NCBI RefSeq assembly: GCF_027364955.1
Contig: NZ_DAHXOI010000017.1
Span: 1-49,882 of the forward strand
Length of the DNA stretch: 49,882 nucleotides
Direction: 5' to 3'
DNA from: Ferrimicrobium sp.
Lineage (GTDB): Bacteria > Actinomycetota > Acidimicrobiia > Acidimicrobiales > Acidimicrobiaceae
Position 1 is the first letter of the stretch. Every line of letters begins with the position of its first letter. The translations under genes were made by a program, and so were the position numbers. Below are positions 7,003-17,997 of this stretch, one piece after another. Below the pieces are notes generated by a model, which worked only from the letters and a program-made list of their open reading frames with translations, was not told the DNA's origin and did not search any database.

Positions 7003-7926
7003 CTACGGGAGCCGCGCTGGCACGCCTGCGGAAACGATTCCGCCTCCACCACTGCTCTGTCCAGAGCCAGAAGAACCCGATCCCGCTCCGGTGGGTTGGT
7101 CTCCCGTATTGGAATATGACCCCGAAGCATTGCCATTACCCGAAGAAGAGGTGGGATTCAAACCAAACCCCGGGACACTCGGGCTTGGTAGCTTTGTCCC
7201 GAGAATCGTTGAACAAAACTCAGGGACGGTCAATCCACGATTCAGTGCACTCTCTGCCAATCGTAGAAACTGCTTGGACGACTGTAACTTCGACACTTTT
7301 GTTGTCACAGCAGAGGAACTTTGTCGTTCACTGATCGCCTTGCTGTACGACAGACACAGACCGTGATAACTCGCAGGTATCACGCTTCCCACCTGGCCTG
7401 GCGCGACAAGCGTGCCCTGTCCCTGGCCGTTTTGCTTGCCCTGTCCCTGGCCGTTTTGCTTGTCTTGGTTCTTGGTCTGACCAGACTCCGCCACCTTTGT
7501 TGAATGTTCCGACCCAGATGGTGTCTTCTTACTGTTTTGACCGTTGTCCTTCTTCGACGGAGCGACCTGTTGGCGCGAGGGACTCACTTGTGCCTTAGAT
7601 TGCGTTGCTTGTGTAGCCGACGGCTTGGTAGTCGCTGCTGGATGCGTAAACGCGTGCGTCAACGCGGCAGTGAATCCGCCTCCCACCACCACGAACGCGG
7701 CTGCCGCGGCTGCTACCTTGAGCGGGGTAAAACGTGAGAACGCTCGTCGCTGTTGTGCTGACCCAACCACCACCGATCGTCGGAACGCGGCAACAGCCAC
7801 ATCCTCGGCGGCCAACTCGTGGATAGTCGCTGGAGCTTGAGCGGCGCGGACAAGCCGTGCGAGATGGCCATTAGAACTCGTGGCGCCATGACCGCCCAAA
7901 ATGTCTTCGATCTCGTCCGGATCCAA
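7003..7926 (-). CDS. Membrane-anchored putative anti-sigma factor with low-complexity exterior
   Basis: The 307-residue protein has a short N-terminal cytoplasmic part (about 1-68) and one membrane segment (about 69-92, Ala/Val/Gly rich). A long exported region follows, rich in Ser, Gln, Gly and Lys, including two copies of a GQGQGKQN-type octapeptide. A compact segment with two Cys (GLCLSYSKA and EFCSTILG) sits near 190-245, then a Gly/Ser tail. It lies 52 bp downstream of an ECF sigma factor gene on the same strand, and that context is the main reason for the call. There is no HxxxCxxC zinc motif of ZAS anti-sigma factors. It could instead be a surface protein under control of the sigma factor. 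Confidence 0.6.
   Translation of the reverse strand: MDPDEIEDILGGHGATSSNGHLARLVRAAQAPATIHELAAEDVAVAAFRRSVVVGSAQQRRAFSRFTPLKVAAAAAAFVVVGGGFTAALTHAFTHPAATTKPSATQATQSKAQVSPSRQQVAPSKKDNGQNSKKTPSGSEHSTKVAESGQTKNQDKQNGQGQGKQNGQGQGTLVAPGQVGSVIPASYHGLCLSYSKAISERQSSSAVTTKVSKLQSSKQFLRLAESALNRGLTVPEFCSTILGTKLPSPSVPGFGLNPTSSSGNGNASGSYSNTGDQPTGAGSGSSGSGQSSGGGGIVSAGVPARLP
7414..7461. repeat. Perfect 24-bp direct tandem repeat within the anti-sigma gene
   Basis: Two identical 24-bp units (7414-7437 and 7438-7461) encode the duplicated Gln-Gly-Lys-Asn octapeptide in the exported linker. The 24-bp length keeps the frame. The identity suggests recent duplication by slippage and possible length variation between strains. 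Confidence 0.85.
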
Positions 7927-7978
7927 CGCTCTTGTACTCCTTACCTTGCCAAATTAAACGCAGTGAAGACTGCGTACG

Positions 7979-8518
7979 TTACGCCTTATCCTTCAGATTT
8001 TCAGCGAGTTTTGCGAGCGCTCGGTGTTGCGCGACGCGTACCGATGCCTCGCTCTTACCCAAGAGGTCGCCCACCTCCTTCGCGCTAAATCCTCCGAGCA
8101 CCCTTAATAGCACGATCTCGGCTTGCTCGTCATTAAGCCCCTCCACCAGCGCAGCGACTGCCTCGTCGATCTCCAATTGCTCAGGTGGAGCAACCTCTGA
8201 CAATTCGTGCACATCTGCATCCCGTGCGATTTGGGGTCGAACAGCCCGGCGTCGGTAGAGGTCGATCGTACGGCGTCGCGCGGTGGCAAAGATCCAGGCA
8301 CGAAAGGCGAGCTCGTCACCAACAAACTTGGACAATCCTTTGGTAACTGAGATCCAGACCTCGGCAGCGACGTCTTCGGCATCACCTCCAAGGCGACCCC
8401 GCAAGAATCGCAGCAGACCAGGGTGATAGGTCCGATAGATAACCCGAAAAGCTACTTCATCTCCCCGTTGCGCCTGTTGGAGAACCTCTGGGAAGTCTTC
8501 AATTTCAAATTGACTCAA
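7979..8518 (-). CDS. ECF-type RNA polymerase sigma factor
   Basis: The 179-residue product has region 2 (about residues 20-90: YHPGLLRFLRGRLGGDAEDVAAEVWISV, then FRAWIFATARRRTIDLYRRR). It also has region 4 (about 125-175: LNDEQAEIVLLRVLGGFSAKEVGDLLGKSEASVRVAQHRALAKL), which includes the helix-turn-helix. Region 3 is missing, as in group 4 sigma factors. It should direct RNA polymerase to a small regulon, held in check by the membrane protein encoded 52 bp downstream. The gene is divergent from kdpA across 328 bp, so it could share control signals with the kdp locus. Confidence 0.9.
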   Translation of the reverse strand: MSQFEIEDFPEVLQQAQRGDEVAFRVIYRTYHPGLLRFLRGRLGGDAEDVAAEVWISVTKGLSKFVGDELAFRAWIFATARRRTIDLYRRRAVRPQIARDADVHELSEVAPPEQLEIDEAVAALVEGLNDEQAEIVLLRVLGGFSAKEVGDLLGKSEASVRVAQHRALAKLAENLKDKA

Positions 8519-8846
8519 CCGGCTCCTCGATATGTGTTAACGCGAATTGCGGCTATATCGGTAATAGTCCTGGAACGACTCTACAGCCCACCCCGAGAAC
8601 TCAGGCATAGATCCCGATGAAGGTAAGCCCGAATCCATTCTCGCCAGGCATGCACCTCAACAATCGGGGTCCGATGCTCAAAGTGTCACTCCTGCACACC
8701 CCGTCAGCGTTTCAGGCAAACCGTGTCAACAGTTCTTGATACCTCTCTTGTGCCGTGTCAACAGACTCTCAACGTTGGGGGCAATCTCCAAGCCGGACCA
8801 GTGCGCGGCCATAGGATGAGCCCGTGTTCTGGAACTGGGAGTCTGC
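8519..8846. promoter_or_regulatory. Divergent sigma/kdpA control region with a duplicated 12-bp motif
   Basis: CCGTGTCAACAG occurs perfectly at 8721-8732 and 8753-8764. The 32-bp start-to-start spacing is about three helical turns, so both copies face the same side of the DNA. They lie 80-125 bp upstream of the kdpA start. They could be KdpE binding sites or promoter elements for the neighbouring ECF sigma factor. No kdpF-like small ORF and no obvious cyclic-di-AMP riboswitch could be seen in this interval. Confidence 0.45.
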
Positions 8847-10535
8847 ATGGCGTTTGTAATCGAAGTCATTGTTCTGCTGGTCGTGCTCGGCCTGATCTGG
8901 CGATATCTGGGCTCATATCTGACGGCGGTGTTCACTGGGCGAGTCCACTTTCTGGACTGGATCGAGTTACCCCTCCTTCGTCTCCTCGGGATCCAACCGG
9001 GCGCGGAGCAGAGCTGGCGTCGGTATCTCCGGTCCTTGCTCGTCTTCTCTCTCGTCTCCTTGGTGATCACCTACCTACTGCTGGCTCTCCAGGGACATCT
9101 CCCGCTGAACCCTGAGCATCTTGGTGACGTGACACCAGCACTCGCCTTCAACACAGCGGTGTCGTTTATCACCAACACCGACTGGCAAAACTACGCCGGT
9201 GGGACAACAATGTCGTATCTCTCGCAGATGGTCGCCCTGGCGACACAAAACTTCGTCTCGGCCGCCGTTGGTCTTGCCGTCGCGATCGCGGTGATCCGCG
9301 GCTTTTCTCGCAAGCGATCGAGTACCCTTGGCAACTTCTGGATCGACACCATTCGTGGAGTGTTCTACGTTCTTCTCCCAATCTCGATCGTCATGACGCT
9401 CGTCTTCGTCTGGCAAGGAGCTCCCCAGACGCTCCTTGGCCCAGCGCACATCCATGATGTCTTGAACGGTGTTCACCAAACCATCCTTCGAGGACCGGTG
9501 GCCTCCCAAGAGGTGATCAAGCAACTCGGTACCAACGGCGGTGGTTTCTTCAACGCCAACGCTGCACACCCCTTTGAGAACCCGACCGGATTCACGAATT
9601 TCCTGGAGATCGTTCTGATCCTCTGCGTCCCCGTTGCCCTAACGTACACTTTTGGCAAGATGGTCGGCAACATCAAGGAGGGTGTGGCGGTGCTCATGGC
9701 GATGATTATCCTCTTCGCCGGTACCTTCGCCTTCACACTCGCTGCCGAGAATGGTGGCAATCCCGCCATCCACGCAGCCGGCATCACCAGCACCCGCGGC
9801 AATATGGTCGGCAAAGAATCGCGCTTTGGAGTCGACAATTCGGTGCTCTTTAACGTGACATCAACACAGACATCGACCGGATCAGTCAACTCCTCCGCTG
9901 ATTCCTACACGCCGATCGGCGGCCTTGGCATGCTGGCTGGCATGATGTACGGCGAGGTCTCCCCCGGAGGTATCGGTAGCGGTATCTACACCATCTTGAT
10001 CTTCGCTATCCTCACCGTCTTCATCGCCGGCCTGATGGTGGGGAGAACACCGGAGTATGTGCGGAAGAAGATCCAGAAAACCGAGATCATCTGGGCATCG
10101 ATTGGGGTGCTGGTGATGCCCATCACCGTACTAGTCCTGACAGCGATCACCGTTGCCCTCCCTGATGGACGAACTGCCATCTTGAACCACGGACCTCATG
10201 GATTCTCCGAGATCCTTTATGCCTTCACCTCACAGGGCAACAACAATGGCTCGGCCTTCGCCGGTCTCTCAAGCAACACCGCCTACTTCAACATCACCGG
10301 TGCCATCGCCATGCTGATTGGAAGATTTGGCGTGATCATACCCGTGATGGCGCTCGCTGGCTCCTTGGCCGCCAAAGAGGAGGTCCCAGTAACCGCCGGC
10401 ACGTTCTTGACTGCTACCCCAATGTTCACCGGTCTCCTGGTCGGAGTGATTTTACTGGTTGGTGCTCTTAATTTCTTTCCGGCAGTGGCGCTTGGACCCA
10501 TTGCGGAAGCCGTCTCACATGGGAGGTTTTTCTAA
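8847..10535 (+). CDS. kdpA: Potassium-transporting ATPase subunit KdpA
   Basis: This is the K+ channel-like subunit of the KdpFABC pump. Its 562 residues match the family length. The selectivity-filter loops are visible: TNTDWQNYAGG at about 109-119, TNGGGFFNANAAHPFENP at about 229-246, a third at SPGGIGSG and the last in TSQGNNNGSAF. A GGGAG ribosome site lies five bases before the ATG. The stop codon is directly followed by the kdpB ATG. The locus gives high-affinity K+ uptake under K+ limitation. No kdpF is seen upstream. Confidence 0.97.
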   Translation: MAFVIEVIVLLVVLGLIWRYLGSYLTAVFTGRVHFLDWIELPLLRLLGIQPGAEQSWRRYLRSLLVFSLVSLVITYLLLALQGHLPLNPEHLGDVTPALAFNTAVSFITNTDWQNYAGGTTMSYLSQMVALATQNFVSAAVGLAVAIAVIRGFSRKRSSTLGNFWIDTIRGVFYVLLPISIVMTLVFVWQGAPQTLLGPAHIHDVLNGVHQTILRGPVASQEVIKQLGTNGGGFFNANAAHPFENPTGFTNFLEIVLILCVPVALTYTFGKMVGNIKEGVAVLMAMIILFAGTFAFTLAAENGGNPAIHAAGITSTRGNMVGKESRFGVDNSVLFNVTSTQTSTGSVNSSADSYTPIGGLGMLAGMMYGEVSPGGIGSGIYTILIFAILTVFIAGLMVGRTPEYVRKKIQKTEIIWASIGVLVMPITVLVLTAITVALPDGRTAILNHGPHGFSEILYAFTSQGNNNGSAFAGLSSNTAYFNITGAIAMLIGRFGVIIPVMALAGSLAAKEEVPVTAGTFLTATPMFTGLLVGVILLVGALNFFPAVALGPIAEAVSHGRFF

Positions 10536-12575
10536 ATGGCTACCAGCGTTCGAACCAAGGGTGTCGCGGGGTCGAAGTCGCTCTTTGACCGCGATATCCT
10601 CAGCACCGCCATCAAGGCGTCATTCGTCAAACTCGACCCCCGGGTCCAGGTACGCAATCCTGTCATGTTCGTGGTCTACCTCGGGACCGTGGTGACTCTC
10701 GTCGCATCGATTGTCCACACCTCACTCTTTTCGTGGATGGTCACGATCGTCCTCGCCTTTACCGTGCTGTTTGCCAACTTTGCAGAGGCAATGGCTGAGG
10801 GCCGCGGCAAGGCCCAGGCCGACACCCTTCGTCGAACCCGAACCGAGACTGAGGCACGGAGGCTTAACTCCGATGGATCCGAGGAGGTCGTGGCCGCGAA
10901 TCAACTCCAGACCGGGGACCTCGTCGTCTGCGAAGCCAACGACGTCATCCCCTCCGATGGAGAGATCGTCGACGGCGTTGCCTCCGTCGACGAGTCCGCT
11001 ATCACAGGAGAGTCAGCACCGGTCATCCGCGAGGCTGGGGGTGATCGGTCGTCGGTGACGGGTGGCACCATGGTGCTTTCGGATCGCATCGTGATCAAGA
11101 TCACCGCGACACCGGGCAACTCCTTCCTCGATCGAATGATCTCACTGGTCGAGGGTGCGAACCGCAAAAAGACGCCCAACGAGGTAGCGCTCTCCATTCT
11201 CCTGATCGCGTTGACGGTGATCTTTGTTCCCGTGGTGGTGAGCTTGGAGTACTTCGCCCACTTCTCGCACACGGGGATCGCGATCGTCACCCTTGTCGCT
11301 CTCCTCGTCTGTCTCATCCCGACGACGATCGGCGCCCTCCTCTCGGCGATCGGGATCGCCGGAATGGACCGAATGGTTCAAAAAAACGTGCTGGCCATGT
11401 CTGGCCGAGCCGTTGAGGCCGCCGGCGACGTCTCGACCCTTTTGCTCGACAAGACCGGAACGATCACCTTTGGCAACCGAATGGCGTCGCGCTTTGTCGG
11501 CGTCGGCGGCACCTCCGATGAGGAGATGGCTCGAGTGGCTCGGCTCGCCTCGATGGCCGATGAGACACCCGAGGGTCGTTCGATCGTGGTGCTGGCGAAA
11601 AACGAGTACGGTATCCGTGACAACGAAGTCGGTACCGATTACGAGTTCGTTCCCTTCTCAGCTACCACCCGAATGTCTGGCGTGAACATCAATGACACCC
11701 AGATTCGCAAAGGGGCGACCGAAGCAGTTAAACGGTGGGTGATTGACCAGGGCGGAGAGGTTCCCGCTGAAGTTGACGATCTCACCAAGGAGATCGCCAA
11801 CGCTGGCTCTACGCCGCTGGTGGTAGCTGAGAACAAAAGAGTGCTCGGTGTTGTCGAACTCAAGGACGTCGTCAAGCCCGGTATCAAAGAACGCTTCGCC
11901 CAGTTGCGTAAGATGGGCATTCGTACCGTGATGATCACCGGCGATAACCCTCTTACTGCCGCCGCGATCGCCTCAGAGGCGGGTGTCGATGACTACCTCG
12001 CTGAGGCGACACCAGAGCGCAAACTCGAACTCATCAAGGAGGAGCAGGAGGGGGGCAAACTCGTTGCGATGACCGGTGACGGCACCAACGATGCCCCGGC
12101 GCTCGCCCAGGCAGATGTCGGGGTTGCGATGAACTCAGGAACGGTCGCTGCCAAGGAGGCAGGCAACATGGTCGATCTCGATTCAAGTCCCACCAAACTG
12201 ATCGAGATCGTCGAGGTTGGTAAGCAACTCCTCATCACCCGAGGGGCGCTCACCACCTTCTCGATCGCCAATGACCTTGCGAAGTACTTCGCCATTATCC
12301 CCGCACTCTTCATTGCGGCCTATCCACAGTTGAAGGTGCTCAACGTCATGCACCTTCACTCCCCGATCACCGCGATCCTCTCGGCAGTGATCTTTAACGC
12401 GCTGATCATCATCGTCCTGATCCCACTCGCGCTGCGGGGGGTGAAGTTTCGACCCGCCGCTGCCGGAGAGATCATACGAAGAAACGTATTCATCTATGGA
12501 GTGGGTGGAGTGATCCTCCCCTTCATCGGCATCAAACTCATCGATATTCTTCTCACGGTCACGAGGTTGTACTAA
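10536..12575 (+). CDS. kdpB: Potassium-transporting P-type ATPase subunit KdpB
   Basis: This catalytic subunit of 679 residues has all P-type ATPase hallmarks. TGES (residues 157-160) is the dephosphorylation loop. DKTGT (305-309) carries the phosphorylated Asp305, and TGDGTNDAP (from 513) is the hinge. The serine of TGES matches the E. coli KdpB Ser162 whose phosphorylation switches the pump off, so that regulation is possible here. It starts immediately after the kdpA stop with GGGAGG upstream, and its TAA overlaps the kdpC ATG by one base. Confidence 0.98.
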
Positions 12576-13111
12576 TGCTTACTCAAATCCGCCGCTCAAT
12601 CGTTCTTGCCCTCTTCTTCGCCATCATCCTCGGTCTTGCCTATCCACTCGTTGAGACTGGGCTGGCCAACGTCCTCTTTCCCGCCCGGGCAAAAGGTTCA
12701 CTCACCCCGTACGGCTCCACCGAGATAGGCCAGCATTGGACTGGAGACCGTTGGTTTCACGGTCGGCCAGATCTCGACAATGACACCGAGACGGGAGGCA
12801 CCAATCTTGGCCCTCGCTCCAAGCAACTGCTCGACAACACCAAAGCACTCGTGGCGTTCTGGCATGCCCAAGGTGTCGACCCCACCCAAGAACTGGTCAC
12901 CACGTCGGGAAGCGAGGTCGACCCCGACATCTCCCAAAAGAGCGCTCTTGTTCAGATCCCAATGATCCAACGATCGACTGGCATCTCAGCAAGCCGTCTA
13001 CGCCAGCTCATCGACGCGCAGACCACCGGGCCTGAATACGGCATCTTTGGCGATGGCTACGTGAACGTCCTGAGCCTGAATCGTGCACTCGCGGCGATCG
13101 AAGGGCGCTAG
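12575..13111 (+). CDS. kdpC: Potassium-transporting ATPase subunit KdpC
   Basis: The 178-residue protein has one N-terminal membrane helix (about 7-30) and then the soluble KdpC domain with GSTEIGQHW, FHGRPD and the PxISxxSALVQIPMI region. In this subfamily the last part reads DPDISQKSALVQIP. KdpC stabilises ATP binding in the pump complex. The ATG overlaps the kdpB stop (TAATG), and the gene ends the kdpABC unit 53 bp before a strong hairpin. Confidence 0.96.
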   Translation: MLTQIRRSIVLALFFAIILGLAYPLVETGLANVLFPARAKGSLTPYGSTEIGQHWTGDRWFHGRPDLDNDTETGGTNLGPRSKQLLDNTKALVAFWHAQGVDPTQELVTTSGSEVDPDISQKSALVQIPMIQRSTGISASRLRQLIDAQTTGPEYGIFGDGYVNVLSLNRALAAIEGR

Positions 13112-13164
13112 CTGGCTCGCGTCACGGTGGGTGGAATCAGGCAGCAAGCAATGCGTGACCCACG

Positions 13165-13198
13165 GACGACAACTAGGCGACCTCGCCTAGTTGTCGTC
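13165..13198. terminator. 16-bp perfect hairpin between kdpC and the convergent kdpD-N gene
   Basis: Bases 13165-13180 pair perfectly with 13183-13198, leaving a two-base loop (in practice four). The stem contains the TAG stop codon and the last codons of the leftward kdpD-N gene. No T-run follows on either strand, so termination efficiency is uncertain. Position between two convergent genes suggests a shared, bidirectional terminator or RNA-stabilising stem. Confidence 0.65.
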
Positions 13199-14329
13199 AA
13201 TCTCAGCGAGTCCTGGGTCGTAGTCGCGGATCCCGATCACATGGACATCAATGCCCATCGGACCGACCTTGCGAAGGACCTGATTGACGATAGACCCCTT
13301 CAACAGTTCATCGCGTCGAGAACGCTTTGAGGCACCGATGACAATCTGGGTGATCTGATGCTCGAGCGCGGTCTCAACCATGACATCGGCCACCTTGATG
13401 CCGTACTTCTCCAAGAAGACAACCCCAAGATCATGGCTCAACTTCCTGAGCGCCTCGATCTCTCTGGAGGCCGACTCCGATATGTCGGTGTCGGGCATGA
13501 TCAACAACGAGCGCAGGTCCGCCTTAGAGCGCGCCGCCATCCTCGCCGCCCGGCGAAGAACTCGTGGGGTCTCCGGCGAGAGGCTCAATCCCACCAAGTA
13601 ACGCTCTCTCGTCTCAAAAACTCTCCGACCCTGTCGGTTTGCGAACGACAAGAGCAGATCTTCGTCCGCTTCGTCAGCCACAAAACGCAAGGCCAACTCT
13701 CGCAAGGCGGTCAGATTCTGTGTGGTGAAGAAGTTGTCAAGTGCCGACTGGATCTTCGACTCGGGGTAGATGTTGCCGTGAAGCATTCGCCGCCGCAGCT
13801 GCTGCGGGGAGGAGTCGATCAGCTCGAGCTGATCGGCTTGGCGTACCACCCAGTCCGGTACCCGTTCGGAGATGCGGACCCCGAGCATCTCCTCGACCGC
13901 ACCAGCGATACTCTCGATATGTTGCACGTTCAGCGTTGCAATGACATCGATTCCCGCATTCAACAGATCGAGCACGTCCTCATAGCGCTTTTCGTGTGGT
14001 CCGGATCCTGGAATATTTGTGTGAGCGAGCTCATCGACCAGCACCACATCAGGATGACGAGCCACAACCGCTGCGGTATCCATCTCCATGAATTGACGCC
14101 CTTGGTAGGTCACCACCCGTTGGGGAATCACGGGTATCTCGCGGATCAGTTCCTGGGTGTGGACCCGCCCATGGGTCTCAACCAACCCGATCACCACATC
14201 GGCCCCGCGCTGCATCCGTCGCCATCCCTCGTCCAACATGGCGCAGGTCTTCCCCACCCCCGCCATCGCCCCCAAATAGATACGAAATCGACCAGCAGCC
14301 TCAACCTCATTGCTTGCGGATTGTTCCAC
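13187..14329 (-). CDS. Truncated KdpD: N-terminal KdpD/USP sensor module without kinase
   Basis: The protein has about 380 residues and contains only the cytoplasmic N-terminal half of KdpD. The KdpD domain has Walker A GAMAGVGKT (about 20-28) and Walker B-like VDELAHTN (about 98). It is followed by a universal-stress-protein domain (about 240-370) with GASKRSRRDELLKGSIVNQ. Membrane helices and kinase are absent. They are encoded by the divergent gene at 14401. In Staphylococcus KdpD the USP domain binds cyclic-di-AMP. Here the SxS part (SLS) is kept but the following aromatic-Tyr part is not obvious. I chose the GTG at 14329 because AGGTAGG lies six bases upstream. A TTG at 14356 is also possible and would suit a leaderless start after TATCAT at 14369-14364. 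Confidence 0.88.
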   Translation of the reverse strand: MEQSASNEVEAAGRFRIYLGAMAGVGKTCAMLDEGWRRMQRGADVVIGLVETHGRVHTQELIREIPVIPQRVVTYQGRQFMEMDTAAVVARHPDVVLVDELAHTNIPGSGPHEKRYEDVLDLLNAGIDVIATLNVQHIESIAGAVEEMLGVRISERVPDWVVRQADQLELIDSSPQQLRRRMLHGNIYPESKIQSALDNFFTTQNLTALRELALRFVADEADEDLLLSFANRQGRRVFETRERYLVGLSLSPETPRVLRRAARMAARSKADLRSLLIMPDTDISESASREIEALRKLSHDLGVVFLEKYGIKVADVMVETALEHQITQIVIGASKRSRRDELLKGSIVNQVLRKVGPMGIDVHVIGIRDYDPGLAEIDDN

Positions 14330-14400
14330 GCTCGACCTACCTCGGTCTATCTCCAAGTCGACGATGATACGATCTCTATACTAGGGGCGATGGGCAGAAT

Positions 14401-15876
14401 ATGATGGGTAGGGAGTTCACAGCACACGACCGATCCGCGTTGCTTGGATCGGGCCTCAGTATTCTCATGATCGGTGTGTTTTCCGCGCTGCTCATACCAC
14501 TGCGCACGCATCTCCCACCCGCGTCCATCGCGCTCATTCTTGTCGTCCCTCTGGTGGCCAGCATCGCCGTTGGCGGCATCTCGGCCGGAGTCGTTGCCAC
14601 CCTTGCTGGTTTTGGCGCCTACGATCTCTTTTTTATCCCTCCGTATGGCACCCTCGCTGTGGGGGTAGCGTCAAATTGGATACCCCTTGGTGTCTATGCT
14701 TTGGTCGGTCTCGTCACCGTCCTGATTGACCGTCGCTTCCGACTCCAGAGAGAGCGCGCGCTCTACCAGGCACATATTCTCGAACAACTAGCCAATCTTC
14801 CCGCTACGCTCATCAGCGAACGCTCCCTTGAGGGTGTGTGGCGAAACGCCACTGAACAGATCGTACAGCTCCTGGATCTCCAGGGGGTGATGGCATTGCG
14901 CCCAACAGACAACCTGCTCCGACCAGCGAACATTGTCGGCGACCGCCAGATGGCAACCACGATAGCAAACGCCTTTGTTGGATCAAACGGCATGGCTCGG
15001 AGTGGGGAGATCACCATTGCGGGAGTCCGAGTCCGCTCCTTTGCCTTATCGACGCTCAGTGACAACTTCGGGTTCCTGGTGATCTGGAACGATGACCTGC
15101 CTGATAGCCTCGTGCAGGCACTCAATGTGGTAGCCAACCAGATATCCGCCGCCCTTGAGCGAACACAGCTCCACGAGACGCGCCTCAAACTCGATACACT
15201 CCAACAGATCGACGGCTGGCGCGCATCCCTCCTGAGAACGGTATCGCATGACCTGTTGACACCGCTTGCCGGCATCAAGACCGCCACCACCGCGCTCAAC
15301 GAATTCGGTGATGGTCTCGAACCACACGAACGTGAACAGCTCCTGGATACCGCGCTCAGCCAAATCGACCGATCGATTCAGTTGGTCAGCGATCTGCTCA
15401 ACGTCACACGCATCGAGGCCGGTGCCTTTCATCTCCAATATCGATCGGTGAACCTGATCGAGCTAATCCAAGAGGTTGCGACGGGTATCGATTTTCTCTC
15501 GGTCGAATCAAAGCTTGACCTCTCCACCCCCTCTGAGCTACCGCTGGCCTGGGCTGATGTTGGGTTGGTACGCGAGGTGATCTGGAATCTGCTCGATAAC
15601 GCCGTCCGCCACTCACCAATCGGTGAGGTGATCCAAGTGAAGATCGAACTCGACAAGGCGTTCTTTGTCGTCCATATCCACGATACCGGCCGACTCGTCG
15701 AGGGCGCAGATCAGATCCGGCTCTTTGAATGGTTCCATGCCGTAGGTAAAAGTGGGCGCGCTGGATTAGGCCTTGCCATTGCGCGATCCTTCATCGAGGC
15801 CCACCACGGTCAGCTCTCAGTCCATACGGCGGAGGACGGAACAACCTTCACCTTCACGCTTCCGAGGCAACAATGA
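14401..15876 (+). CDS. KdpD C-terminal half: membrane sensor histidine kinase
   Basis: The 491-residue protein begins with a DUF4118-type membrane domain with four helices (about 14-110, including YDLFFIPPYGTLAV). A GAF-like segment follows (about 130-255), then the HisKA box VSHDLLTPLAGIK with His283, the N box (NLLDNAVRHSP, about 396-406), the DTG motif (about 429) and GLGLAIA (about 455-461). These are exactly the KdpD parts missing from the neighbouring kdpD-N gene, so the two together equal one KdpD. It overlaps kdpE by four bases. A TATACT -10 element lies at 14377-14382. It should phosphorylate KdpE, with the separate N-terminal protein as a partner in trans. Confidence 0.9.
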   Translation: MMGREFTAHDRSALLGSGLSILMIGVFSALLIPLRTHLPPASIALILVVPLVASIAVGGISAGVVATLAGFGAYDLFFIPPYGTLAVGVASNWIPLGVYALVGLVTVLIDRRFRLQRERALYQAHILEQLANLPATLISERSLEGVWRNATEQIVQLLDLQGVMALRPTDNLLRPANIVGDRQMATTIANAFVGSNGMARSGEITIAGVRVRSFALSTLSDNFGFLVIWNDDLPDSLVQALNVVANQISAALERTQLHETRLKLDTLQQIDGWRASLLRTVSHDLLTPLAGIKTATTALNEFGDGLEPHEREQLLDTALSQIDRSIQLVSDLLNVTRIEAGAFHLQYRSVNLIELIQEVATGIDFLSVESKLDLSTPSELPLAWADVGLVREVIWNLLDNAVRHSPIGEVIQVKIELDKAFFVVHIHDTGRLVEGADQIRLFEWFHAVGKSGRAGLGLAIARSFIEAHHGQLSVHTAEDGTTFTFTLPRQQ

Positions 15877-16553
15877 CCTCCATTCTTATCATCGACGATG
15901 ACCCAGCACTCAGTAGAGTGCTCCGCATTGGATTGAGCGCCGCGGGCTATGACGTCACCGTTGCCCTGCGGGGTCTGGATGGACTGGCTCGGGCCATCCA
16001 GGATCACCCGGATCTTTTGGTCGTTGACCTTGGTCTTCCGGACATCGATGGCGTGACTCTCGTCGCAGAGCTACGTCGCTATCACAAGAAGGGCCTAGTT
16101 GTCCTCTCAGCGGCGGGCGACGAGCACACCAAAGTCAAAGCCCTCGACCGTGGTGCCGATGACTATGTCACCAAGCCTTTCGGATTGAGCGAGTTCGAAG
16201 CTCGGCTGCGTGCACTGGAGCGCCGCATGGACCAGTCCGCTCCAGTGGTGACCGAGATAACCGCTGCGCCAGGATTGGTGATCGACCTAGCAAAACGTCG
16301 CGTGATCGACGATGTCCAGGGTGAGATCCGACTCACGCCTCGAGAATTTGATCTCCTACGGTTCTTGGTTGAAAATCAACGGCGTCTCTGCACGCATCAG
16401 CTCCTCCTGACGACCCTCTGGGGAGAAGGCTATGACGACCCGCACCACGTACGCGTGTACGTCAATCGCCTGCGAACCAAGTTAGGTCCATCCAGCCAGT
16501 ACCTCCGATCCAGAGCTGGACTGGGTTACTTATGGGAGAGCGAGCCTCCGTAA
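15873..16553 (+). CDS. kdpE: Response regulator KdpE (OmpR/PhoB type)
   Basis: The 226-residue regulator has a receiver domain (about 1-115) with acidic pocket DDD at 8-10, phospho-acceptor Asp52 in VVDLGLPD and Lys101 in TKPFG. A winged-helix DNA-binding domain follows (about 130-222; LTPREFDLLRFLV and HHVRVYVNRLRTKLG). Its ATG lies inside the kinase stop region (ATGA), showing translational coupling. It is expected to activate kdpABC, and the duplicated 12-bp motif at 8721-8764 is a candidate target. Confidence 0.93.
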   Translation: MTSILIIDDDPALSRVLRIGLSAAGYDVTVALRGLDGLARAIQDHPDLLVVDLGLPDIDGVTLVAELRRYHKKGLVVLSAAGDEHTKVKALDRGADDYVTKPFGLSEFEARLRALERRMDQSAPVVTEITAAPGLVIDLAKRRVIDDVQGEIRLTPREFDLLRFLVENQRRLCTHQLLLTTLWGEGYDDPHHVRVYVNRLRTKLGPSSQYLRSRAGLGYLWESEPP

Positions 16554-16648
16554 CAACGATCACCCATGGATCCCCTCTCGGTCACTAGCAACAAGCTCTA
16601 CGGGCCATGCGATACCTTCGTCGATGCCGTTCGCTCAATCTAGCAGGG

Positions 16649-17230
16649 CTACTTCTGTCTTCTCCTGATCTCCAGCGGGGTCTTCCTAATCGCATAGTCT
16701 GCTAAGGCAATCGCCGATGCGAGCACAATAGTGATGATCGGACTGACACCCAAGATCGTCAGCCCAACCGCCATCACTGCGATCAAAACCGTCAGGAATA
16801 TATGGGGAACGTCTTGCCAGAGGGTCCAAACAACGTCCAGCAAGAGACCTATCACCGCTACTTCGATCCCGTGCAATGCGCCAGTCAGGTACGGGTTATG
16901 GAGTACCGCCGTAGCATCGGCTAGGCCGAGAATCAGAAGAAAGGAGGGCCAGATGGCAGCGATAAAGCCAGCTAGCAGTCCTTTCGTTCCTTTGACCCGC
17001 ATCGCAATAGCCGCCAAAACATTGGTGGTGGTCGGCCCAGGGGCGAAGGCGGACATCTCGACGATCTGATCGAACTGAGCCGAAGTGATCCAAGCATGCT
17101 TTTCAACCACCTCGGATCGGATAAAGGACAGCACGGCATATCCACCGCCGAAACCTAGTGTGCCAATCTTTGTGTAGACACCTACCAATGAGAGGAGTGA
17201 TACCTGTTTCTTCGGTTGCTCATCTGACAA
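16649..17230 (-). CDS. Chromate transporter, half-size CHR subunit
   Basis: The 193-residue membrane protein starts with the CHR motif YTKIGTLGFGGGYAVLSFIRSEVV (about 18-41) and has APGPTTTN at about 70-77. Both motifs are conserved in the chromate ion transporter family (PF02417). It has about six helices and is a single-domain (short-chain) form. Such forms normally work as heteropairs, and the partner is encoded upstream at 17434-17997. Together they would export chromate and give resistance. Substrate is inferred from family only. Confidence 0.88.
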   Translation of the reverse strand: MSDEQPKKQVSLLSLVGVYTKIGTLGFGGGYAVLSFIRSEVVEKHAWITSAQFDQIVEMSAFAPGPTTTNVLAAIAMRVKGTKGLLAGFIAAIWPSFLLILGLADATAVLHNPYLTGALHGIEVAVIGLLLDVVWTLWQDVPHIFLTVLIAVMAVGLTILGVSPIITIVLASAIALADYAIRKTPLEIRRRQK

Positions 17231-17433
17231 CAGCTTTGCTCCCTTCAGTCTTCACCGTTACACGACTTCGCAGCAGCGGTGACAATGGTGCCTGTTGGCC
17301 ACATGTTCCAATTCCTGCTGCACCCGATTGCGGGGAGATTCGACGTTCATCCGATCCGGATTTCCAAGCGACCGACCATTGGCCAGGTTTGATCGACACA
17401 TACAACAAACGGGCATCTGCAGTCGACCAAGGC
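17231..17433. other. 203-bp gap between the two chromate transporter genes
   Basis: Paired short CHR genes are normally adjacent or overlapping, but here 203 bp separate them. I see no ORF with clear coding character and no obvious terminator. It could be a decayed insertion or an untranslated spacer with its own promoter. Confidence 0.4.
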
Positions 17434-17997
17434 TTAACGAAAGAGCAGGGCACCGATCACCCCGCTTCCAAGGATCATCGCCCAATAGGGAGCTTTCCAC
17501 TTCAAGGCAATCGCGAGGACCAAGACCGCGAGGACCGCTTCCTCCCATGAGGTGATAATCGTCCTCCCGAGAAGGAAGGAGACCCCAGCGATGAGTCCGG
17601 TCACCGCCGCCAACGTCACGACCATAACGTTCTTGACCGACGGTATCTTCTTGAGGCGCGGATACAAGTGGGTTAGCGCCGCGATGATGACCAAGGAGGG
17701 GATAAAAACTGCAATGGTCGCCACGGCTGCACCGACGATCCCATCCACTCGTTCACCAATAAACGTCGCTGATATGGCAACTGGGCCGGGAGTGATCTGC
17801 CCCATGGCGATCGCTTGATCGAAGGGGCCTATCTTCAACCAATGATGAGCGAGAACAGCCGAGCGCATCAACGGTATCATCCCGAAACCTCCCCCAAAGG
17901 CGAGGGCCCCTATCCACAGAAACGTTACAAAAAGATCAATCGCGACGAACAAGCGTGCCTCCTTTGGAGCAGTATTCTGAGCACCAGCATCTACCAC
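17434..17997 (-). CDS. Chromate transporter, half-size CHR subunit (first of the pair)
   Basis: The 187-residue membrane protein carries FLWIGALAFGGGFGMIPLMRSAVL (about 29-52) and ITPGPVAISATFIGERVDG (about 68-86), the two signature blocks of CHR proteins. It is the upstream member of the leftward pair. The C-terminus (KWKAPYWAMILGSGVIGALLF) ends in a helix as usual. Chromate efflux would suit a metal-rich acidic habitat. Confidence 0.88.
   Translation of the reverse strand: MVDAGAQNTAPKEARLFVAIDLFVTFLWIGALAFGGGFGMIPLMRSAVLAHHWLKIGPFDQAIAMGQITPGPVAISATFIGERVDGIVGAAVATIAVFIPSLVIIAALTHLYPRLKKIPSVKNVMVVTLAAVTGLIAGVSFLLGRTIITSWEEAVLAVLVLAIALKWKAPYWAMILGSGVIGALLFR

Follow-up and report, generated by a model that had tools for sequence, protein, structure and literature searches.

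A KdpD sensor encoded by two divergent genes, one of them converging with the potassium pump genes, in Ferrimicrobium

We analyzed a 49,882-nucleotide stretch of DNA from Ferrimicrobium sp. (assembly GCF_027364955.1, contig NZ_DAHXOI010000017.1; this whole stretch is called the window below), which carries the genes of a Kdp potassium pump together with a KdpD sensor that is divided between two proteins, KdpN and KdpH (Table 1). The two genes are adjacent and on opposite strands, and the pump genes kdpABC (8847-13111, +) converge on kdpN, as seen from open reading frames (ORFs) and Pfam domains; coordinates and domains thus agree with an earlier note on this DNA, which had described two complete, adjacent KdpD halves in opposite orientation with kdpABC converging. 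Since kdpN and kdpH lie on opposite strands, they are not a single gene split by a frameshift. The kdpN frame could start at a TTG at 14356 (389 aa) or at a GTG at 14329 (380 aa), and with the latter the starts of kdpN and kdpH are 72 bases apart. The response regulator gene that follows kdpH has as its best NCBIfam match KdpE, NF007820 (4e-45, under the model cut-off).

Table 1. Genes and control-region features of the Ferrimicrobium kdp locus (positions in the window).
Feature	Position	Strand	Description
kdpA	8847-10535	+	K+ pump; PF03814, 1.2e-224; NCBIfam TIGR00680 above cut-off
kdpB	10536-12575	+	K+ pump; NCBIfam TIGR01497 above cut-off; TGES serine is residue 160
kdpC	12575-13111	+	K+ pump; PF02669, 8.7e-47
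kdpN	13187-14329	-	stand-alone KdpD domain (Walker A/B) and USP domain
kdpH	14401-15876	+	491 aa; Pfam DUF4118, HisKA and HATPase_c; GAF-like domain by model
kdpE	15873-16553	+	OmpR-type response regulator; PF00072 and PF00486; 4-base overlap with kdpH end
kdpN/kdpH divergent gap	14330-14400		presumed promoter region; conserved block CTATACTAGGGG at 14376-14387
inverted repeat at kdpC/kdpN junction	13165-13198		16-base perfect arms, 2-base loop; overlaps kdpN stop
candidate KdpE operator	8758-8773	+	direct repeat TCAACA-N5-TCAAC, 89 bases 5' of kdpA start; putative function

KdpN matches the KdpD family PF02702 over profile positions 2-209 of 210 (1.1e-86) and the Usp family PF00582 at 1.2e-10, and its top NCBIfam match is NF038185, KdpD_non_kinase, with 364.9 bits, below the curated cut-off of 550. 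For its AlphaFold model (34 sequences; mean predicted local distance difference test score, pLDDT, 78.6), the top folds are 2r8r, the N-terminal region of KdpD (TM-score 0.93 over the target), and 7ji4, a KdpD USP domain with cyclic di-AMP (c-di-AMP; 0.86). The Walker A lysine, the Walker B Asp-Glu pair (equivalents of D109/E110), and the arginine equivalent to R190 of Escherichia coli are present in 91/91 split proteins of the survey described below, and KdpN is 87-99% identical across the genus. The TGES serine of KdpB is kept in 66/69 KdpB rows, the remaining three being two gaps and one R. In E. coli, the KdpD domain works as a serine kinase by a Walker A/B mechanism; its target is Ser162 of KdpB, whose phosphorylation shuts the pump, and KdpD residues 1-230 alone suffice to phosphorylate KdpB (PMC11018627).

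The other half, KdpH, has its phosphoacceptor at His283, within a S282-H283-D284-L285 motif that is invariant in a 34-sequence alignment. Its AlphaFold model (pLDDT 80.6) contains a helical membrane part, an alpha/beta part at about residues 143-230, and a kinase core, and the best folds for it are ordinary histidine kinases. Pfam GAF has no match in KdpH; from the order of strands and helices in the model, residues 143-230 appear GAF-like. The earlier note had regarded the N-terminal half as the sensing half, whose amount the cell could vary independently of the kinase. The layout does permit independent transcription of the two genes, and this part of the proposal holds. The idea of an N-terminal sensing half that tunes the kinase is not supported in that wording: the KdpD domain has serine-kinase activity toward KdpB, and the K+ sites suggested for E. 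coli KdpD are in its transmembrane (TM)/GAF part (PMC11018627), the counterpart of which lies in KdpH.

The Ferrimicrobium assembly is a draft of 84 contigs and 3.08 Mb, 97.55% complete. It has one PF02702 match above the cut-off, two of about 20 bits below it, and one match to PF13493 (DUF4118). With a single match above the cut-off for each domain, no full-length kdpD was found in this assembly, so that this refuting condition of the earlier note is not seen, though the few per cent of the genome outside the assembly could carry a copy. In a wider search, PF02702 was found in 45/60 relatives at E up to 0.001 (44 above cut-off) and a match at E up to 1e-20 in 102/394 genomes of the class. Of 115 class matches, counted without three partial rows (two G013 fragments and one G160 piece), 46 have an open frame no longer than 600 residues and 69 a longer one, indicating that both short and full-length KdpD are present in the class. 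Some genomes have both forms, for example the same-genus genome G003, where a second kdp locus (L122) carries a full-length KdpD besides the split one. At three other loci (L072, L073, and L079), full-length kdpD, kdpE, and a separate kdpN are consecutive on one strand.

Gene order was compared among the window, the best 80 of 108 confirmed contig-search loci, and 29 stretches of relatives, which came to 103 loci after removal of 7 repeat loci with identical kdpN DNA. The kdp labels denote similarity to the window's own proteins, and at about 29-38% identity, a distant "KdpH" may represent some other kinase, DUF4118 having been checked in part of the loci. An intact separate kdpN is present in 91 loci and only a full-length kdpD in 11; the last one, L133 (genome G013, same family), stands outside the 91 and has a kdpN broken by in-frame stops, with no kdpABC labeled in the available stretch. 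Going 5' from kdpN, the nearest kdp gene is the kinase gene in opposite orientation (head-to-head) in 44/91, 41 of these within 260 bases, and kdpC on the same strand in 28/91, the gaps there being mostly in the low hundreds of bases (L102, 2,078). In the remaining loci it is kdpE on the same strand (4), kdpA on the opposite strand (2), kdpB on the opposite strand (1), the kinase gene on the same strand (1), or not in view (11). At its other end, kdpN is tail-to-tail with kdpC in 11/91 loci: the window, L035, L036, L038, L039, L040, L074, L117, L118, L119, and L126. All six same-genus genomes examined (G001-G006) have the head-to-head kdpN/kdpH pair; the contig of G006 stops within the kinase gene. 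In five of them, kdpABC can also be seen to converge on kdpN, the contig of G005 stopping before kdpC. The KdpD/USP gene lies directly 3' of kdpC on the same strand in Deinococcus and cyanobacterial records (L146, L147, and L148). The two-gene KdpD arrangement is confirmed: it does not stem from a broken gene, and it is conserved both within the genus and among its neighbors.

A quick maximum-likelihood tree was built from 109 of 110 KdpD-domain rows, one short row (under 250 residues) having been dropped; the search behind it was brief and had no bootstrap, and long branches carry several of the rows. The split proteins form one group separate from the 14 full-length rows, with 98% support in the Shimodaira-Hasegawa-like approximate likelihood ratio test (SH-aLRT). 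One group of 11 rows (99%), which includes the Ferrimicrobium genus, contains ten of the 11 tail-to-tail loci; its eleventh row is L037, whose contig stops before kdpC, and the remaining tail-to-tail locus, L074, is placed elsewhere. Two changes are needed on the tree for the head-to-head versus after-kdpC states, and two for the tail-to-tail state. This grouping suggests that the split is old in this group and that the inversion relative to kdpABC came later and was retained. The tail-to-tail order with kdpC is a stable variant of the known split-KdpD kind, and the orientation against the pump operon is its new detail.

Upstream of kdpA, the direct repeat TCAACA-N5-TCAAC is located at -89/-90 in the five same-genus loci with a readable upstream stretch, the window included, and at -89 in L038. 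In a shorter form with an 11-base step (TTGA-N7-TTGA or TCAA-N7-TCAA), repeats occur in 16/54 kdpA upstream stretches, compared with about 0.2 expected in base-shuffled copies, with two clusters of positions, -89/-90 (6 loci) and -208 to -213 (10 loci). Elsewhere, they are found in 0/41 head-to-head gaps and 1/64 kinase-gene upstream stretches. Because OmpR-family regulators usually bind direct repeats, those upstream of kdpA are candidate KdpE sites. The pattern alone is not specific, since TCAA-N7-TCAA has 5 matches in the window versus 1.45 expected and the longer TCAACA-N5-TCAAC has four exact copies genome-wide.

The kdpN/kdpH gap appears to be a divergent promoter region. The block CTATACTAGGGG just 5' of kdpH is identical in 7/7 same-genus loci, including the window, and is single copy in the genome. 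It resembles a dyad, CCCTA-TAC-TAGGG, in L117 and L037, and the corresponding gap of L054 (also L058) holds an array of 7-base repeats (CGAGCGT-like). A consensus scan for sigma-70 promoters returned none, fewer than in shuffles (3.1), and is uninformative. At the opposite end of kdpN, the repeat at the kdpC junction is the sole inverted repeat with arms of at least 12 and a loop of at most 12 in the window, with 0 in each of five mononucleotide shuffles; it is without a T-run and absent from the output of the terminator scan. L119 has the same repeat at this junction, L039, L118, and others have different hairpins, and L035 has only a weak one. In the window, it is probably a two-way terminator or insulator. 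For a c-di-AMP riboswitch or other known RNA, there was no Rfam match in 7900-17300 at E up to 1. KdpF-like peptides were sought with a crude pattern whose misses mean little; none was recognized at 8600-8846, 5' of kdpA, and 11/54 related kdpA upstream stretches have one. Beyond kdpE lie two leftward genes (16649-17230 and 17434-17997), which we take to resemble the halves of a short-chain chromate-transporter (CHR) pair.

We favor, with a probability of roughly 0.7, a split form of Kdp control with a transcriptional arm, KdpH/KdpE, and a post-translational arm, in which KdpN acts as a serine kinase. KdpH, a membrane kinase with a GAF-like part, and KdpE would switch on kdpABC at low K+, KdpE probably acting via the direct repeats upstream of kdpA. 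KdpN, as a putative soluble atypical serine kinase (ASK), would phosphorylate KdpB Ser160, the counterpart of E. coli Ser162, under ample K+ and thereby stop the pump; it would probably be tuned via its USP domain, possibly by c-di-AMP. Its serine-kinase function is extrapolated from biochemical work on the E. coli and Deinococcus proteins, and we infer the ligand, the operator, the promoters, and the regulatory consequence of the arrangement. A short KdpD version of Deinococcus geothermalis is stimulated by c-di-AMP (PMC11018627), and the Ferrimicrobium genome has one match to a diadenylate cyclase. The scheme is also favored by the conserved catalytic residues and KdpB serine, by the KdpD folds of the KdpN model, and by the direct repeats, which occur upstream of kdpA and were not found in the kdpN/kdpH gap. 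KdpN distances, moreover, correlate with those of KdpB over 69 loci (r = 0.76) and with those of KdpH over 64 loci (r = 0.87). Transcription of kdpN would start in the short kdpN/kdpH gap and run against kdpABC, so that the supply of KdpN could not rise by read-through on pump induction.

Several observations weigh against this scheme. The equivalent of E. coli W39, an adenine contact, is Cys29 in the window's KdpN, and the position varies among the 91 split proteins (C 41, Y 26, V 14, F 8, and W 2); it is Tyr in the Deinococcus and cyanobacterial proteins examined. The USP domain fits the c-di-AMP-binding motif of the Staphylococcus aureus type, (A/G/C)XSXSX2N(Y/F) (PMC8214093), at 3/5 positions (G, S, and S, with T for N and L for Y/F). 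The Deinococcus radiodurans protein fits at only 1/5, which indicates that this motif may not be diagnostic; as a marker, it does not discriminate. Shared descent accounts for most of the correlation of KdpN distances with those of KdpB and KdpH. Finally, the 41 head-to-head gaps are shorter in the repeat comparison (mean 135 versus 241 bases), which weakens the count of 0/41.

KdpN could instead be mainly a trans-acting input subunit of KdpH/KdpE that binds the kinase or the KdpE-DNA complex, its level setting kdpABC transcription. In E. coli, KdpD/1-395 alone leads to constitutive kdpFABC expression and stabilizes phospho-KdpE on DNA (PMC2714519), and both the head-to-head placement of the two genes and the correlated distances of their proteins (r = 0.87) would suit such a partnership. 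However, KdpN correlates with KdpB as well, its fully conserved catalytic residues and the TGES of KdpB suit an enzyme acting on the pump, and short KdpD/Usp versions are mostly found in species without KdpE (PMC11018627). We therefore consider it possible but unlikely that this is the main role of KdpN, and the pump-inhibiting and trans-input roles could coexist. Loss of kdpN does occur, as its broken copy in G013 indicates, but the identity across the genus and the catalytic residues invariant over 91 proteins make it very improbable that KdpN is a functionless remnant retained by its neighborhood. An assembly artifact is hardly credible, and so is the breaking of one kdpD gene by a recent inversion: beyond the draft state of the genome, we found no support for either, both ORFs are intact with complete domains, other genomes of the genus share the order, as do L038, L039, L040, and L126, and the tree sets the 91 split proteins as a clade apart from the full-length rows. 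Recent fission or artifact is rejected by this conservation of order together with the tree.

Under split control by KdpN and KdpH/KdpE, the distinctive point is the gene order, in which transcripts reading through from kdpABC cannot yield the probable inhibitory kinase of the pump. The 2024 study of KdpD suggested that expressing the serine kinase together with the pump by read-through is important (PMC11018627), and a clade in which this is not possible offers a natural test of that idea. Moreover, the two enzymatic roles of KdpD reside in separately deletable genes, so that transcriptional control and pump inhibition could be measured apart with the protein uncut. A further step, which we regard as quite doubtful, is that the inverted kdpN provides built-in antagonism. 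Pump transcription would meet the inhibitor gene, or be insulated from it by the hairpin, pump induction would lower or never raise the inhibitor, and inhibitor and K+-sensing kinase would share a short divergent control region with CTATACTAGGGG. If true, control would switch on and off more sharply than with a one-piece KdpD.

Otherwise, the Ferrimicrobium locus is of an ordinary, already described type of Kdp control. Split KdpD has been published for Deinococcus, cyanobacteria, and Alicyclobacillus, and in a survey of 5,495 species. In Alicyclobacillus acidocaldarius, kdpD is reportedly split, with two divergent kdp operons, going by the title of a 2006 paper by Schleussinger; Ferrimicrobium is similar in both respects and differs in having kdpN antisense to kdpABC. 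In D. radiodurans (L146), the KdpD/USP and kinase halves are likewise separate, with the kinase and response regulator in an opposite-facing operon (PMC5716572), and with these precedents, the novelty of the split implied by the earlier note was too high. There, however, kdpD-N comes last in the pump operon, kdpBAC-kdpD-N, on the same strand (PMC5716572), whereas Ferrimicrobium kdpN lies opposite to the pump genes, facing kdpC tail-to-tail and the kinase gene head-to-head; the D. radiodurans kinase is also annotated as a HAMP-domain kinase, unlike KdpH. A literature search, with subscription journals mostly outside it, found no paper whose title or abstract gives this gene order in Acidimicrobiia. 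In domain content of both proteins and presence of KdpE, the locus resembles the split class of PMC11018627, an ASK (KdpD/Usp) plus a histidine kinase (TM/GAF/DHpCA): KdpN is a KdpD/Usp protein without a kinase core, and KdpH is a separate TM/GAF/DHpCA kinase, its GAF part known from the model only. This class is commonest in Acidobacteriota and Chloroflexota, and a word search of the available main text finds neither Actinomycetota nor Actinobacteria (PMC11018627). With kdpN on the opposite strand, the locus differs from the read-through type, in which the ASK gene is 3' of the pump on the same strand. Compared with E. coli (L145), all catalytic motifs of both halves of full-length KdpD are present, but there they belong to one polypeptide encoded in one operon, kdpFABCDE.
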